The notes under the pieces: model-generated | What the model was told of the DNA's origin: nothing | The model's input: the letters and a program-made list of their open reading frames with translations, nothing else | Database searches by the model: none | Made by a program: the position numbers and the translations under genes | Source of the DNA: Bacteroidota bacterium | GTDB taxonomy: Bacteria; Bacteroidota; Bacteroidia; Flavobacteriales; Flavobacteriaceae | DNA length: 40,209 nt | Assembly (NCBI GenBank): GCA_024280145.1 | Contig: JAJRQR010000059.1 | Location: 1-40,209 of the forward strand | Reading direction: 5' to 3' | Shown here: in pieces, positions 1,736-23,280 of the stretch | How positions within the stretch are numbered: position 1 is the first letter of the stretch | How the letters are laid out: the number at the start of each line of letters is the position of its first letter

Positions 1736-3223
1736 ATGAAATTAAACTTTAAATTGAAACAATATATTTTAGTTTTAACTGGACTACTATTAGCCAGTGC
1801 CTTATATTTTATAGTTCCTAACGACTCTAATCCACAAGCTCCAGCAGTAGCAGCAATGATTATTTTTATGGCCTTTTTATGGATAACTGAATTAATTCCT
1901 CTTGCAGTTACCTCATTAATACCAATCGTTTATTTACCATTTATTGGTGTTGGAAAACTATCACAGATAACAGCTTACTATGCAAAACCTATTATATTTT
2001 TATTCTTAGGTGGTTTTATTTTGGCGATTGGAATTCAGAAAACAGGATTGCACAAACGAATTGCTTTATTTCTTTTAAAGAGGATAGGAGACAAACCCCA
2101 ACAATTAGTTTTAGGATTTATGTTAGCAACAGCAATGTTGAGTATGTGGATTTCTAACACTGCATCTGTAATGGTAATGATGCCTGTTGGATTGTCGGTT
2201 TTAGAAACTGCAAAAAAGAACGGGTTATCAGGAAAATCATTAACAAATTTAGGCCTAGGTATTATGTTAGGACTTGCCTATGCTGCTGATATAGGTGGAA
2301 TGGCAACTATAATTGGAACTCCTCCAAATATGGTTTTTATGGAAATGTACACAGAATTATTCCCAGATTTACCCGCTATTGGTTTTGTAACTTGGATGAT
2401 TATGGTACTGCCTATTAGTGTTATTTTTTTATTTAGTGGCTGGCTGATTTTGACAAGAGTAGTTTTCAGGTTACCCAACACTCGAATTATGGGTGGAAGT
2501 AAAATTATAAGTAATGAATATTATAAATTAGGAAAGATGAGTCCTGATGAAAAGCGTGCTGGTATTATTTTTTTAATAGCAATCTTTTTATGGATTACAG
2601 GGTCTGATATTCAAATAGGGGAGAGTTTTAATATTAGCGGATGGCGGACTATATTTAATTTACCTGAGTTAAAAGATGCTTCGGTTGCTATATTTGCAGC
2701 TATTTTATTATTTGTTGCGCCTTCTTCAAAAAAGGAAAATAAAAGTATTCTTTCTTGGAATGATGCTTTAAAAGTTCCTTGGGGAATTTTATTATTATTT
2801 GGTGGAGGACTTGCTTTAGCAGGAGGTTTTCAGCTTTCGGGATTGGGTGAAGTTGTAAGCTCTTTATTTGCAAATACTCAGGTAAACTCTTCAACAGTTG
2901 CTGTGTTTTCGGTCTCGTTTGTATTGACTTTTTTAACTGAAATTACTTCCAACACCGCCATTACTAATTTAATATTACCCATTATTGCAGAAGCTTCAAA
3001 AGCTTTGGATATTGATCCTCGTTTATTAATGATTCCTGCAACCTTATCAGCAAGTTGTGCTTTTATGATGCCTGTCGCTTCACCAACTCAAGCTATTGTC
3101 TTTGGCTCGGGTTATGTAAAAATAAAGGATATGGTAAAAGGAGGATTATTATTTAATTTTATAGGAATACTAATTGTTTCGCTAATCTTTTTAGTCTGGG
3201 GACGCTTTGTTTTAGGGATTTAA
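1736..3223 (+). CDS. SLC13/DASS family sodium-coupled anion (dicarboxylate-type) transporter
   Basis: Inner-membrane transporter of 495 residues with about 11-12 hydrophobic segments. The two S-N-T motifs that define the DASS/SLC13 family are present: S-N-T-A at residues 140-143 and S-N-T-A at 405-408, the latter preceded by T-E-I-T. In the family these motifs bind the carboxylate substrate and sodium. The late M-P-V-A-S-P-T-Q-A-I-V-F-G-S-G block is also typical. The substrate (succinate, malate, sulfate and others) cannot be decided from sequence. I chose the ATG at 1736 over an upstream TTG frame start. A strong hairpin follows at 3225-3289. Confidence 0.92.
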   Translation: MKLNFKLKQYILVLTGLLLASALYFIVPNDSNPQAPAVAAMIIFMAFLWITELIPLAVTSLIPIVYLPFIGVGKLSQITAYYAKPIIFLFLGGFILAIGIQKTGLHKRIALFLLKRIGDKPQQLVLGFMLATAMLSMWISNTASVMVMMPVGLSVLETAKKNGLSGKSLTNLGLGIMLGLAYAADIGGMATIIGTPPNMVFMEMYTELFPDLPAIGFVTWMIMVLPISVIFLFSGWLILTRVVFRLPNTRIMGGSKIISNEYYKLGKMSPDEKRAGIIFLIAIFLWITGSDIQIGESFNISGWRTIFNLPELKDASVAIFAAILLFVAPSSKKENKSILSWNDALKVPWGILLLFGGGLALAGGFQLSGLGEVVSSLFANTQVNSSTVAVFSVSFVLTFLTEITSNTAITNLILPIIAEASKALDIDPRLLMIPATLSASCAFMMPVASPTQAIVFGSGYVKIKDMVKGGLLFNFIGILIVSLIFLVWGRFVLGI

Positions 3224-18547: not shown

Positions 18548-18799
18548 ATGGCACTATCAAACAACGATATTTTTAAAAAACTACGAGTAGCATTAAAACT
18601 ACGGGATGATGAGATTGTAAAAATTTTAGAATTGGTAGATTTTAAATCAACCAAAAGCGAAATTGGATCTCTTTTCAGAAATGAGAAACATCCAAAATAT
18701 GTAGAATGTGGCGATCAGATTCTTCGTAACTTTTTACACGGCCTGGTAATTCATTTACGAGGACCAATGCCCAAAAAGGAACCAAAAGGTAAAATATAA
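18548..18799 (+). CDS. DUF1456 family protein, single-domain (YehS-like)
   Basis: Soluble protein of 83 residues. It matches one DUF1456 repeat: S-N-N-D-I-F-K-K-L-R-V-A-L-K-L-R-D-D-E-I-V-K-I-L-E-L, then E-I-G-S-L-F-R-N and the C-D-Q-x-L-R-N-F-L-x-G-L-like ending (here G-D-Q-I-L-R-N-F-L-H-G-L). E. coli YehS has two such repeats in about 156 residues, so this is a one-repeat form with a short proline/lysine tail. The function of the family is unknown. Confidence 0.85.
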   Translation: MALSNNDIFKKLRVALKLRDDEIVKILELVDFKSTKSEIGSLFRNEKHPKYVECGDQILRNFLHGLVIHLRGPMPKKEPKGKI

Positions 18800-18800
18800 C

Positions 18801-18830
18801 AAGCTTCTTTCAAATTAATAAAAGAAGCTT
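18801..18830. terminator. hairpin between DUF1456 and the first 33-codon gene
   Basis: Perfect 10-bp inverted repeat: AAGCTTCTTT at 18801-18810 and its complement at 18821-18830, with a 10-base loop. It lies two bases after the DUF1456 stop and 27 bases beyond the stop of the convergent small gene at 18857, so it may serve both. Confidence 0.7.
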
Positions 18831-18856: not shown

Positions 18857-18958
18857 TTAATAAGTACTTAGCTTATTAAATCGTCTTCTATTATTCCAAT
18901 TAAAAGACTTAGAAGTTTTAGTTCTTTCGGTTAACTTATTTGTATTTAATGTTCTCAT
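18857..18958 (-). CDS. very basic 33-residue protein, paralogue of the one at 23102
   Basis: A 33-codon frame starts M-R-T-L-N-T-N-K-L-T-E and ends F-N-W-N-N-R-R-R-F-N-K-L-S-T-Y. It aligns without gaps to the frame at 23102-23203, with 19 of 33 residues identical. Identical residues often use different codons (Thr3, Thr10, Glu11, Lys17, Leu30), and there are conservative swaps such as Ser/Thr6 and Lys/Arg8, which is the mark of selection on protein. It has nine Lys/Arg and a single Glu. A TAATTTTG box lies 56 bases upstream and a hairpin at 18801-18830 follows. This gene accounts for most of the interval 18800-19093. I do not recognise the family. Confidence 0.75.
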   Translation of the reverse strand: MRTLNTNKLTERTKTSKSFNWNNRRRFNKLSTY

Positions 18959-19013
18959 AATTAATTTGTTTAAATATTTCTATGTAATAGACGTATTAAA
19001 TCTAATTACGTTA

Positions 19014-19021
19014 CAAAATTA
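19014..19021 (-). promoter_or_regulatory. candidate -7 box of the first 33-codon gene
   Basis: On the minus strand this reads TAATTTTG, a full match to TAnnTTTG, 56 bases upstream of the start codon at 18958. The paralogous gene has the identical box at a similar distance. No clear -33 TTG is present here. Confidence 0.45.
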
Positions 19022-19093
19022 CTAACAAATATTTGATTAAATTGAAAATAACATAATATTAACACTAAAATAGATGTTGAATTTACGAATAGT

Positions 19094-21481
19094 TTAATTT
19101 TCAGGAGTAAAAATAATTTTAGTCGAAGATTCTATTATTTCTTCCTTATTCATCATCATCTTTCTGAATTCACCTTTATTATACATTTCTGCTTGATCGC
19201 GATAATGTTCACTTAAAGGATTTCCAGACTGTCCTGTTGGATTGATACTCATACTGTTCTCTATATCACTAAAATCAATTATTCTTCTAGTAGAAGGTCC
19301 CGACTTTACATTATAAATTCCAGTTTCATCTCGATGATAATCTAGATTATTAATAACCTCGGCTGCACCATTAACTGCATAAGGTCCAACATTAAAAAAG
19401 CTTCGCAAGGTTTCTATTTTACCAATAGGGTGTGGGTGTTCTATAATATGTACTTTATTCCAAGTCCAATTATTCATATTCTCACCTAATTGTTCTTCTA
19501 AAGCTGCAACTGTTTCAATTAATGTTTTGGAAAGAATATCTTTTTTATTTTCAATTTTATCTGAAGTGGTAATGTCATCCCACCAAATAGATTCTTTTTT
19601 GTGAATTTGATATGCCAACACTCTATCAATTCAATGTGTTTGTTTAAACTGATCGTACAAATCTTGCCCCAATTCATCTTCAAAAGTATTTTTTAAATAC
19701 AAGTACACAAATTTATTATAAATGGTAGGAGCAACCGCATCTAAGGTGTTTGAACCATCCCAAAGTTGAAGTACATCAAAGGCACGTCGTTCATTTTTAC
19801 TGAAAGAATTAAAGTTGATAGTATTTGTAATTTCCTTAATAACTTCAGGTGCTACAGAGGAAGTAACATCATTAATCATTGCCTTCATAGAAGTTGAATT
19901 CCAATTGTTTTTGGGTTCTAATAAGCTTACAATTCTTTTTGCTCGATCTTCAGTTATATAATATCCAGGGTATAACATTCCGGCAATACTATCAGGTTGG
20001 TTATTGGCAGAATAGACGTAATTCCAAGAGGGGTTTTCAGCCATAGGGTTCTCTGAAAAATCTAAAAATTCAATTATATCATCTTCTCCTGAAGCGCCAT
20101 CGAGAATAAACTTGGTATTTACATGGTCTTTATGTTTATATAATTTAGCCGAAGCATACCAAGCAATATTTCCTTTGGCATCACCATACATTAAATTTAA
20201 ACCTGGAGCGTGAAGTAAGGAGGCACCTTTTTTAAAATCTGCCATACTTTTAGCTCTCGAAAGTGAATAAAAAACTTCGGCAGCTTTGTTTTCTACTAAG
20301 GTGTACATCCATTGCATAGCAATAGGGTTGTTGTTTGAAATCCCTTTAACAACATCATTTACAATAGGACCGTGACGTGTATATTTTACATTAAAAGTAA
20401 CATCGTCATTGTCTTTTACTTTTATAGTTTTTGAAACAGTTTTAAACGATTCGTAACCCGTTGGTGTTTTGTATTTGTTGGTATCAGTTGGATGTAATTC
20501 TTCTTTATAAAAATCGATATCATCGTTTTCAAACATAGTAACGCCGTAGGCATATTCTCTATTATGACCTAAAAGGGGTAAAGGTACGCCTGCTAGATAA
20601 TATCCATATAATTCAAAATCAGGAGTAATAATATGCGCTTCATACCAAACGGAAGGTTGAGAAAAACCCATATGCGGATCATTGGCTAAAATTACTTTTC
20701 CGTTTTTTGTTTTTTCTTCGGAAACCACCCAACTATTAGAGCCTATAAAATGAGGAACAGGAGATTTATCCATCACCGAATTTATGGTAGAAACCATCGT
20801 ACTGTAGTTTTCAATTTCCTGTTTAGCATTTTTAATGAAGGTCGTATTTGGTCTTATATGAATATTTAATTCTTTCAGGTAAGTACTGTCTAACTTTAGT
20901 TCTAATGCACTTAAAAATGGATCTGTGTTTTGTGCCATTGCAAAACTAAAGGACATATAACCAAAAATATTATACAAATCTTTTATCTGAAAGGGCTCTT
21001 TATTTAAACCTACAAGTGTGTATTCAATAGGAGTGGGGCCTTCATCCATAAATTGATTTACTCCTTTTAAATACGCTTCAATAATTTGATATGTTTTGCT
21101 ATTTTTATCAATATTTTTAATGGTTTCTATTGAGTTTTCTTCAATTCCTAAACTTGCAAAAAAAGTGTCGTTTTCAATTAAATCTTTCCCGAATACTTCA
21201 GAAAGACGACCTGGAGCAATTCTTCGCATTAATTCCATTTGCCAAAGTCGATCTTGTGCATGAACATAACCTAAGGTTGTTGTTGCATCCAATTGATTCT
21301 CTGCGTAAATATGCGGAATACCATAACCATCGTAATAAACGGTGGTTTTATTTTCAATATTTTCTAGTGAAACTTCGCCAGAGTAACTAGGTTTTAAATG
21401 ATTATAATACCAAAACCCTGCAATTGCAAGAATTACTAATATGATGAGTAAAAATTTTAATATTTTTTTGAAAATTTTCAT
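19094..21481 (-). pseudogene. penicillin acylase family (Ntn-hydrolase) protein interrupted by an in-frame TGA
   Basis: N-terminal membrane anchor or signal (residues 7-25), then the alpha-chain region with G-Y-V-H-A-Q-D-R-L-W-Q-M-E-L (residues 71-84) and the autocatalytic site G-S-N-S-W, with nucleophile Ser248, followed by L-A-N-D-P-H-M-G-F. The frame meets TGA at 19631-19633 (codon 617) after K-Q-T-H and then continues I-D-R-V-L-A-Y-Q-I-H for 178 residues to TAA at 19094. Restored length is 795 residues, normal for the family, so the stop removes the beta-chain C-terminus. TTA (Leu) to TGA is a one-base change. I chose the start at 21481 (M-K-I-F-K-K) over one 13 codons upstream. The family hydrolyses amide bonds such as beta-lactams or acyl-homoserine lactones; the substrate here is unknown. 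Confidence 0.85.
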
Positions 21482-21537
21482 GAGGATAATGTTATAATAA
21501 GTAGTATTCAAATATAACATTTATTAAAGAAGATTCT

Positions 21538-21963
21538 CTATACTTCTGAAGCAAATAAAGCATCAATTACATCGTTTCGCATTTGGTAGTCAAATGAGTC
21601 GATACAGGGATCCATATCTCCTAATATTGCATTAAGATCTGAATAGGTTTTTTCTAGCGATTTGTAATATTCCAACCATTTTATTTCTGAAGCATTTAGG
21701 TTGTTCTGGTTACACCAATCCAAATAATCAAGACTGTCATTATATACATCCAAGGAGAATAAAATAAGGTAAAGAGCAACCAATGGCTTATTTTTACTGC
21801 AATCACCATATTCATCATCTACATAAACCTGCCATGAATTGGAATCTATGGAAATTTCAGCTAATACAAAGCTTTCAGCATTGGCTTTTTTTAAACTTTT
21901 AATCAAAATATTATTAGATAAATAAATGGACTTTAGTTTGTCTATTTCTGAGTAGTTTTCCAT
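21538..21963 (-). CDS. hypothetical protein
   Basis: Predicted soluble acidic protein of 141 residues with no signal peptide. It is mostly helical, with a short central strand (S-W-Q-V-Y-V-D-D-E-Y-G-D). Notable are three cysteines (in G-D-C-S-K-N, D-W-C-N-Q-N and D-P-C-I-D-S) and several Trp/Tyr. I do not recognise a family. It lies 57 bases upstream of the penicillin acylase gene on the same strand, so the two may be cotranscribed. Confidence 0.72.
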   Translation of the reverse strand: MENYSEIDKLKSIYLSNNILIKSLKKANAESFVLAEISIDSNSWQVYVDDEYGDCSKNKPLVALYLILFSLDVYNDSLDYLDWCNQNNLNASEIKWLEYYKSLEKTYSDLNAILGDMDPCIDSFDYQMRNDVIDALFASEV

Positions 21964-22059
21964 AGGTGTAAGGGTACGAAAATGTGCTTTTTTAATGAAA
22001 TTAAAATTGAAAATTTATCTTGAAAAAAGTAGTATATTCAAATCTTTAAAAACTATAAA

Positions 22060-23061
22060 ATGAACAAACAATTAATATTGGTAAATCGTCCAGAAGGATT
22101 ACCAAAAGAAGATACTTGGAAGCTTGAAACAAACCCAATTAAAGAACTAAAAGATGGAGAAATATTAATTAAGCATCATTACATTTCATTAGACCCCGCA
22201 ATGCGAGGATGGATGATGGATCGTAAATCATACGTTCCTCCTGTTGAGATTGGCGATGTAATGCGAGCTGGGAGTATTGGTAAAGTAATAAAAGCTAATA
22301 ATCATCCAGATTTTAATGTGGGAGATTGCATTGTAAATTGGGGAGGAGTTCAGCAGTACCTAACTACAGATGGTGAAAATTGTTATAAAGTAGATGATAC
22401 TATTGTGCCAATGCCAAAATATTTAGGAGCATTAGGAATGCCTGGAATGACAGCTTATTTTGGTATTTTACAAGTTGGTAAAATTAAAGAAGGAGATATT
22501 GTTTTAGTTTCAGGAGCAGCTGGAGCTGTAGGAAGTATTGTAGGGCAAATTGCAAAAATTAAAGGATGTACCGTAATAGGAATTGCTGGAGGTAAAGAAA
22601 AGTGTGACTATCTCATAAACGAGTTGGGATTTGATGAAGCAATCGACTATAAATCGGAAGATTTAATGGAAGCTTTAAATGAAAAATGCCCTAAAGGAAT
22701 TGATGTATATTTTGACAATGTTGGTGGTGATATATTAGACGCTGCTTTAACAAAATTAAGAATGAATGCACGTGTTGTAATCTGTGGTGCTATTTCGCAA
22801 TATAACAATGTAAATGATATTATTGGACCAAAAAATTATTTGTCATTATTGGTAAACAGAGCAACCATGCAAGGAATGGTGGTACTTGATTATGCAAAAG
22901 ATTATAGTTCTGCTGCTCAAGAAATGGGAATGTGGATGATGCAAGGAAAATTACAAAGCCGAGAGGATATTTATGAAGGTATTGAAAACTTTTACGAAAC
23001 TTTTTTACGTTTATTTTCAGGAAAAAAATTAGGGAAACTAATATTGAAAGTGATAGAATAA
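22060..23061 (+). CDS. NADP-dependent oxidoreductase, MDR superfamily (CurA/leukotriene B4 dehydrogenase-like)
   Basis: Cytoplasmic protein of 333 residues. The N-terminus N-R-P-E-G-L-P-K-E-D-T-W, then S-L-D-P-A-M-R-G-W-M and G-D-V-M-R-A-G-S-I-G-K-V, match the zinc-free medium-chain reductases of the CurA/YncB group. The nucleotide-binding motif V-S-G-A-A-G-A-V-G-S-I-V-G-Q-I-A-K follows, with D-V-Y-F-D-N-V-G-G-D later on. These enzymes reduce alpha,beta-unsaturated ketones or aldehydes with NADPH. A perfect palindromic terminator sits 13 bases after the stop codon. Confidence 0.93.
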   Translation: MNKQLILVNRPEGLPKEDTWKLETNPIKELKDGEILIKHHYISLDPAMRGWMMDRKSYVPPVEIGDVMRAGSIGKVIKANNHPDFNVGDCIVNWGGVQQYLTTDGENCYKVDDTIVPMPKYLGALGMPGMTAYFGILQVGKIKEGDIVLVSGAAGAVGSIVGQIAKIKGCTVIGIAGGKEKCDYLINELGFDEAIDYKSEDLMEALNEKCPKGIDVYFDNVGGDILDAALTKLRMNARVVICGAISQYNNVNDIIGPKNYLSLLVNRATMQGMVVLDYAKDYSSAAQEMGMWMMQGKLQSREDIYEGIENFYETFLRLFSGKKLGKLILKVIE

Positions 23062-23073
23062 GAATTTTCGATA

Positions 23074-23103
23074 AAATAAATAAGCCTCGAGGCTTATTTA
23101 TTT
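23074..23103. terminator. perfect palindrome, bidirectional terminator
   Basis: Thirteen-base arms (AAATAAATAAGCC at 23074-23086 and its complement at 23091-23103) with a TCGA loop. It ends the CurA-like gene on the plus strand. On the minus strand it overlaps the stop codon (23102-23104) of the second 33-codon gene. Confidence 0.85.
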
Positions 23104-23203
23104 AAGGAGTACTCAAAGTTCTAAATCGTCTTTTTGAATTCCACTTAAAAATTTTCGTTTTACTTTTTGTCTCTGTTAATCGATTACTATTTAAAGTTCT
23201 CAT
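23102..23203 (-). CDS. very basic 33-residue protein, paralogue of the one at 18857
   Basis: A 33-codon frame starts M-R-T-L-N-S-N-R-L-T-E and ends F-K-W-N-S-K-R-R-F-R-T-L-S-T-P, exactly the same length as its partner 4.2 kb away. It has ten Lys/Arg and one Glu. Invariant in both copies are M-R-T-L-N-x-N-x-L-T-E, F-x-W-N, R-R-F and L-S-T. The stop codon is embedded in the palindrome at 23074-23103, so the message would be little more than the coding sequence and a hairpin. A TAATTTTG box lies 51 bases upstream. It occupies the otherwise empty interval 23062-23345. The family is not recognised. The charge and size would suit a nucleic-acid- or ribosome-associated peptide, which is speculation. 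Confidence 0.75.
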   Translation of the reverse strand: MRTLNSNRLTETKSKTKIFKWNSKRRFRTLSTP

Positions 23204-23253
23204 CACAAAATATATAAGGTTAATTGTTTGTATATATTCCTTAAAATCTTTTC

Positions 23254-23280
23254 AAAATTAGAAGGTAAATTAATATCAAT
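23254..23280 (-). promoter_or_regulatory. candidate promoter of the second 33-codon gene
   Basis: On the minus strand there is TTG (23278-23280), 16 bases, then TAATTTTG (23254-23261). The -7 box fully matches TAnnTTTG. The -33 spacing is a little short for Bacteroidota (about 17-23 is usual). Confidence 0.45.

Follow-up and report, generated by a model that had tools for sequence, protein, structure and literature searches.

A flavobacterial family of small basic proteins as the probable output of a PadR-PspC envelope-stress circuit

Introduction

Two 33-codon open reading frames (ORFs) lie on the minus strand of a 40,209-nucleotide stretch of DNA from a bacterium of the Flavobacteriaceae (contig JAJRQR010000059.1 of assembly GCA_024280145.1; the whole stretch is called the window below). 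A preliminary description, made from the letters of this stretch, suggested that they form a new family of small basic proteins. Are these frames genes, and if so, what controls them and what might they do? Microproteins that are induced by stress are a known kind. By our analysis, both frames are near-certainly protein-coding genes of an unannotated family. We put at about 70% the probability that the products are cytoplasmic, basic, probably disordered microproteins and that they form the output of an envelope-stress circuit with a PadR-PspC regulator and an extracytoplasmic function (ECF) sigma factor.

The two genes are:

18857..18958, minus strand: copy 1, the 33-codon gene MRTLNTNKLTERTKTSKSFNWNNRRRFNKLSTY (from ORF translation, gapless alignment, and homologues)
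23102..23203, minus strand: copy 2, the 33-codon gene MRTLNSNRLTETKSKTKIFKWNSKRRFRTLSTP (from ORF translation, gapless alignment, and homologues)

Results

A microprotein family under selection

The two frames encode 33 amino acids (aa) each, align without gaps with 19/33 identical residues, and contain the conserved blocks that had been claimed for them. They match each other with E = 1e-11 in a single BLASTP comparison. When all pairs of the 105 ATG-started window ORFs of 25–60 aa were scored (BLOSUM62, start-anchored, ungapped), copies 1 and 2 scored 100 and the next pair scored 29. By hand count, their net charges are +8 and +9, as described.

A search of the window's own genome with copy 1 returned four copies, two of them in the window and two in tandem on another contig (C86). 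Copy 1 alone as the query detected copy 2 (E = 1.7e-6) and both C86 copies (E = 9.6e-9 and 6.1e-6). Scanning genome contigs with the two-sequence alignment gave eight loci, all from Flavobacteriaceae or from Flavobacterium metagenome-assembled genomes. A 14-member profile then matched 110 of 299 genomes of the taxonomic family at E <= 0.01 (87 of 236 when counted by genus), and the best E was 1e-5 or lower in 97 of the 299. The window copies score E = 1.1e-13 and 4.1e-12 against a family profile that includes both of them, and each has the full 28-position match with the MRTL start and the WNx[KR]RR[YF] end. Searches across the order (9/346 genomes at E <= 1e-5) and the phylum (4/395 at E <= 0.001) matched genomes of the same taxonomic family only; the number of genomes from outside that family in these samples is not stated, and the misses displayed are same-family genomes. 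The microprotein family is likely restricted to this one taxonomic family, as judged from these samples.

The family is absent from all of the libraries that we searched. In Pfam and NCBIfam, neither window copy had a match above a curated cut-off (copy 2 reached only PF10857, at 12.9 bits versus a cut-off of 25). PHROGs and phage, plasmid, and viral records held no homologue of a 14-row alignment, of 33 members, or of one 29-aa member, and we rejected a viral, phage, or plasmid origin because of this lack of matches. Among PDB chain sequences there was no credible similarity (best E of 0.46), and the window had no match in Rfam at gathering thresholds.

Selection was claimed to act on the protein, and synonymous changes are indeed strongly preferred. 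In 62 disjoint close pairs, we counted 277.5 synonymous versus 212.5 non-synonymous changes, with 15.9 versus 65.1 sites per pair, for a ratio of non-synonymous to synonymous change per site (pN/pS) of 0.19. When all 731 close pairs are taken, although they are not independent of one another, the ratio is 0.30; it is 0.44 over all pairs, for which synonymous sites are saturated. These counts used 168 full-length copies; 4 of 172 copies were dropped because they did not fit an M[RKI]TL start and WN or WH at positions 21–22, so the invariance of M[RKI]TL and WN in this set is partly by construction. Family copies use different codons for T3, R26, and the serines, and several tandem copies differ by synonymous changes alone and have identical peptides (five synonymous and no non-synonymous in locus L089, and two and none in each of L095 and L049). 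The preliminary description had named two outcomes that would speak against a family, namely no homologues in other genomes and no preference for synonymous sites; we looked at both and found that homologues exist and that the preference is strong. All 166 copies with arginine at codon 2 use AGA there, versus 347 of 567 at other arginine positions, which suggests an extra constraint on the start region.

We studied the anatomy of the family in 107 loci (numbered L), each standing for one array: 11 came from the window genome and genome contigs, 36 from profile and operator searches, and 60 were fetched by place. They were drawn from the listed, better-scoring matches. The 107 loci contain 172 copies: 139 are of 28 aa, 19 of 29, 5 of 31, and 7 of 33, with one of 26 and one of 19. 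There is a single copy at 52 loci, two copies at 46, three at 8, and four at 1. The consensus, MRTL[ND]xNQ[LI][TS]......K..xWNxKRR[YF]R, mostly spans 28–33 residues and usually 28. The MRTL start is present in 166/172 copies, WNx[KR]RR in 169/172, and a net charge of at least +4 in 171/172. The middle of the peptide is variable, and one copy in L041 lacks nine middle residues with both ends intact. The window copies represent a longer subtype with a C-terminal tail.

A promoter and an operator at fixed spacing

We looked for promoter and operator motifs in the 150-base stretch that precedes each array, allowing promoter spacers of 14–18 bases. An ECF-type promoter motif (GTAAC-N16-CGTC) is present in 97 of the 107 arrays, and its spacer is always 16. 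An inverted-repeat operator is present in 81 arrays with a relaxed pattern, its distance to the downstream GTAAC is exactly 21 bases in 79 of these, and the exact form TACT-N11-AGTA is present in 64. Across both strands of all 107 loci (771,206 positions), there were 100 promoter and 92 operator matches in total. Also, 91 arrays have direct repeats of GTTAW with a 10- or 11-base period, versus 0.0067 per 200 base pairs (bp) elsewhere. (A narrower pattern with an 11-base period and TGTTAW half-sites only, found in 20 of 107, was dropped because the arrays mostly have the 10-base period.) The spacers between copies contain WCAATCA in 48 of 65 cases, versus 5.7% of random stretches.

The exact promoter TGTAAC-N16-CGTCTAT occurs at four sites in the window's own 2.78-megabase genome (none for a reversed-pattern control). 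Two of these are at copy 1 and at the C86 array; of the others, one lies 41 bases upstream of a rhodanese gene and one 236 bases upstream of a gene that encodes a CarboxypepD_reg-like domain. The C86 array also has the operator. In 16 other genomes, the exact promoter occurs 19 times (control, 2): at 9 peptide arrays, at 4 copies of a rhodanese-type gene pair, and at 6 other places, two of which (L163 and L166) look like chance. The genes at these sites were identified with Pfam for L153, L160, L149, and L148 and by eye for the remainder. The rhodanese-type pair is that of L153, L160, L154, and L157, and the single gene in the window's genome is at L046; three of the four pairs have the spacer stretch TTCGGATTTTTTT in common.

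Regulation of the arrays by an ECF-type promoter and a PadR-type operator is well supported by sequence. Because the protein, the promoter, and the operator are conserved so exactly, it is hardly in doubt that the arrays have a function.

The same operator in a core PadR operon

A stricter operator pattern, searched for in 17 genomes (numbered G), had sites in 13. The operator also lies upstream of a PadR gene whose operon was confirmed by Pfam in L070 to encode DUF4870, PadR, and PspC, the last with a sub-threshold match to HAAS. (Pfam also confirmed PadR in L073 and L063 and DUF4870 in L073.) With a cut-off of E <= 1e-25, 274 of the 299 genomes have this PadR. For the 30 closest PadR matches, using the best-scoring site at each locus, all 30 operons have a site 33 bases before TATATTTG and a direct repeat preceding the site. 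The site reads TACT-N11-AGTA in 14 operons and TACT-N11-AATA in 16. (The strict pattern captured only 13 of the 30 and was replaced by reading the aligned site.) The two kinds of promoter differ: those of the arrays are ECF-type, whereas the PadR operon has a sigma-A-type promoter with TATATTTG. In five of the 17 genomes (the window's own, G061, G159, G175, and G209), PadR has upstream of it a site, TACTATGCGTAACAAAGTAC, that is the second in the genome and distinct from the first. Several genomes, G124, G153, and G173 among them, have the PadR site yet no peptide gene, so the peptides would be an optional part of the system.

Two published systems bear on this link. According to the available portions of PMC5050560, gel shifts show binding of TACT(N11-12)AGTA by cdPadR1 of Clostridioides difficile. 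The half-sites, the 11-base spacing, and the AT-rich core are as in 64 of the 107 arrays; cdPadR1 is a different regulator from another phylum, and the flavobacterial sites are predicted operators. HAAS-PadR with PspC has been proposed as a signalling pair for membrane stress (PMC11237479, available in part), and the core PadR operon has the operator type and direct repeat of the arrays; the available text of that paper makes no mention of small-protein arrays as targets. From the shared operator and direct repeat, the cdPadR1 motif, and the proposed HAAS-PadR-PspC pair, we strongly infer that the PadR of the core operon represses the arrays.

A second small ORF after the array

In 69 of the 107 loci, a second basic ORF of 43–46 aa follows the array. 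We will call it the partner ORF. Of these, 42 form a recognizable family, MKTxxKISRxLNxITQENLxxxRRIxxFxxSxxxxWKGxKRYAH; the partner ORFs of L099, L103, and L122 were left out of both the alignment of this family and that of the divergent partner ORFs (see Discussion). A profile of the 42 members matched 52 of 299 genomes at E <= 0.01. Of these matches, 45 have E <= 3e-10 and are all in genomes with the 28-aa family, and 7 are weak, with only that of G109 beside an array. Because ORFs behind arrays were used to build the profile, what it newly shows is that strong matches are lacking elsewhere. The profile found no partner in the window's own genome, where the C86 array also lacks the ORF, and in Pfam and NCBIfam the 42 members gave just three one-member matches (E of 0.04–0.07).

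In six loci (L036, L037, L038, L058, L112, and L134), a perfect or near-perfect hairpin, such as AAAGACGTTAC-AGATAA-GTAACGTCTTT, precedes the partner ORF, and its loop contains the stop codon with which the last copy ends. This hairpin possibly sets the ratio of the 28-aa and partner products.

The window copies and their surroundings

The other features of the two window copies are:

18987..19015, minus strand: ECF-type promoter TGTAAC-N16-CGTCTAT of copy 1, which overlaps TAATTTTG at 19014–19021
19048..19064, minus strand: direct repeat TGTTAA-N5-TGTTAT upstream of copy 1, read off the sequence
18801..18830, minus strand: 12-bp terminator-like hairpin past copy 1 (z score -3.85)
23253..23260, minus strand: TAATTTTG, a sigma-A-like -7 element of copy 2, kept in the orthologue L010
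23074..23103, minus strand: 13-bp terminator-like hairpin over the end of copy 2 (z score -3.17)

Both copies were said to have TAATTTTG 51–56 bases upstream. The element is present in both, at about 55 and about 49 bases by hand count, near the distance given. As a promoter common to both copies, it fails: at copy 1, TAATTTTG overlaps the TGTAAC of the ECF-type promoter, and this ECF -35 element is kept in L008, where TAATTTTG is absent. The ECF motif of copy 1 is kept in the orthologues L005, L006, and L008 and is not kept in L007. Upstream of copy 2, we found neither the ECF motif nor the operator. Because only copy 1 has the ECF motif, no one promoter is common to both copies. For copy 2, TAATTTTG was compared with the sigma-A-type -7 consensus TAnnTTTG, which is given in the available part of PMC9723704. 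Overall, the window copies look like solitary offshoots of the arrays, copy 1 with the ECF promoter and direct repeat and copy 2 with a housekeeping-type promoter.

The hairpins that had been noted at or just after both stop codons are stable and terminator-like, whereas the coding stretches of the two copies fold no better than shuffles (z scores of -0.21 and 0.34). Both copies do converge with a plus-strand gene: a DUF1456 gene at 18548–18799 for copy 1 and a zinc-type dehydrogenase gene at 22060–23061 for copy 2. The DUF1456 gene was confirmed with Pfam; by eye, the arrays in L020 and L031 also face a similar gene in convergent orientation, and a DUF1456 sequence signature is present in at least 5 of the 107 loci.

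As in the window, a penicillin acylase gene precedes the copy 1 orthologues in L005–L008. The window's acylase gene (19094–21520, minus strand) consists of two ORFs in the same frame that are split by a TGA at 19631–19633, and it is a single 795-aa frame in L005–L008; the split gene is either a pseudogene or a sequencing error. In L007, upstream of position 3001, a different, hairpin-rich sequence, perhaps a small insertion, replaces the ECF -10 region of the copy 1 orthologue.

By sequence signature, an ExbD/TolR-type gene is near the array in 41 of the 107 loci (for example, L038:1868-2422; one ExbD was confirmed with Pfam) and an Hsp20-type gene in 12. One genome (G005, loci L091–L095) has ten family matches over several contigs. 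The operator is absent in four of its five fetched loci, and by eye there is no obvious mobile element among the adjoining ORFs.

Discussion

A proposed mechanism

The family, the selection on it, the promoter and operator motifs, and the linkage of the partner ORF are evident in the sequences themselves. In the mechanism that we propose, each locus would be an operon-like unit of one to four tandem copies of about 28 aa, often followed by one basic ORF of 43–46 aa. The array would be transcribed from the ECF-type promoter, with the PadR-type operator abutting its -35 region, and the peptides would be made once an ECF factor for envelope stress becomes active and the PadR-PspC regulator releases its hold. 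The direct repeats would perhaps add a response regulator as a further input. The peptides would most likely act in trans, with the N-terminal MRTL and the C-terminal WNxKRR[YF] docking on another molecule and the variable middle serving as a linker. The docking site would probably be at the membrane or on RNA or the ribosome, and we make no choice between these. The acting regulators, the stress signal, the docking, and the site of action are what we infer.

Several observations weigh against this reading. The ECF motif is absent in 10 of the 107 arrays and the operator in 26, with both window copies among the latter, and the promoter counts rest on loci that are not a random sample. With the stricter operator pattern, 4 of the 17 genomes have zero sites. 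PadR is core and the peptides are patchy (274 versus 110 of 299 genomes), so the peptides are dispensable, and the one other sampled genome of the window's genus had no match to the 14-member profile. Another 24 partner ORFs are divergent and have little in common beyond their length. When profiles of the 28-aa peptides and the partner were compared, the C-terminal stretch alone aligned, with a probability of 3%; the two kinds of peptide may be unrelated. Finally, the structures predicted for the 33-aa peptide and for a single 44-aa partner are poor (mean predicted local distance difference test scores of 69.5 and 65.4), so docking is deduced from conservation alone. Poor prediction can be expected of peptides that fold on a partner.

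Alternative explanations

The alternative that survives best, although we consider it unlikely, is that these are accessory stress microproteins that bind the ribosome or RNA, as in hibernation, with no link to the membrane. The almost universal positive charge and the arginine- and lysine-rich C-terminus would suit such a role, and the low-confidence helical model would fit peptides that fold on a partner. Yet the PDB search gave no credible similarity though ribosomal proteins are plentiful there, and among the genes with the common operator there is no ribosome link.

It is quite improbable that the frames are leader peptides (attenuators), in which a ribosome stalled at the basic C-terminus controls the downstream gene. 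Short ORFs do precede another ORF in many loci, the conserved KRR[YF]R adjoins the stop codon, and in 18 of the 107 loci the last copy has a hairpin with a stem of at least 8 at its stop; such a hairpin is seen for 2 of the 65 inner copies and for 26 of 1070 stretches taken at random. However, no long downstream gene is constant, and what follows is instead another basic ORF of 43–46 aa or something else; the window copies end in terminators and the C86 array, by eye, in a terminator-like repeat; and the N-terminus is conserved as well as the C-terminus.

Slightly less probable again are leaderless bacteriocins, secreted signals, or toxin peptides made in tandem. Small, cationic, multi-copy peptides in recently duplicated arrays would be in keeping with this, but the peptides are hydrophilic and no signal peptide or hydrophobic stretch is visible by eye, no neighbor is constant (40 of the 107 loci, whose flanks are short, had none of seven tested signatures), and plasmid, phage, and viral records gave no match.

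Least probable of all is that small regulatory RNAs are the product of the loci, with the reading frames of secondary importance: the loci are short autonomous units with a promoter motif and a terminator, the invariant AGA at codon 2 points to some constraint on DNA or RNA at the start, and the available part of PMC9723704 places the RNA Rfp11 of Flavobacterium psychrophilum under an ECF motif, but the pN/pS of 0.19, the purely synonymous differences between tandem copies with identical peptides, the unremarkable folding of the window's coding stretches, and the lack of an internal stop in any family match listed in the 299-genome profile search all speak for protein.

Relation to known systems and significance

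The proposed envelope-stress circuit has two partial parallels. The SM6 ECF regulon of F. psychrophilum, as described in the available part of PMC9723704, has an ECF motif with a CGT box, and a rhodanese-related gene is in both target sets. The likeness covers the CGT box and the rhodanese-related gene, the peptides are not mentioned in that portion of the paper, and, unlike in the SM6 regulon, we recognized no gene for the type IX secretion system at the exact promoter sites examined here. In Listeria, according to the accessible part of PMC6624303, the PadR repressor LstR and the alternative sigma factor SigC act on one promoter and integrate two signals; the target there is an operon with an FtsW/RodA homologue and not microproteins.

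In the literature that we searched, there is no apparent description of the peptides; databases of predicted small proteins were not searched. Within that scope, we found no earlier description of the microprotein family, of its array-plus-partner form, or of its control region. We would call it an even bet that the tandem 28-aa peptides and the partner of about 44 aa together make up, in one bacterial family, a dedicated and hitherto unseen output of the HAAS-PadR-PspC switch that is gated a second time by an ECF factor and tuned by array copy number.

To our knowledge, stress responses in the Flavobacteriaceae have been little studied, and genes as short as these evade annotation. The arrays may make visible an overlooked piece of the flavobacterial stress response, and the recently proposed HAAS-PadR-PspC pair would gain a specific predicted target, the site of which is sharply defined.

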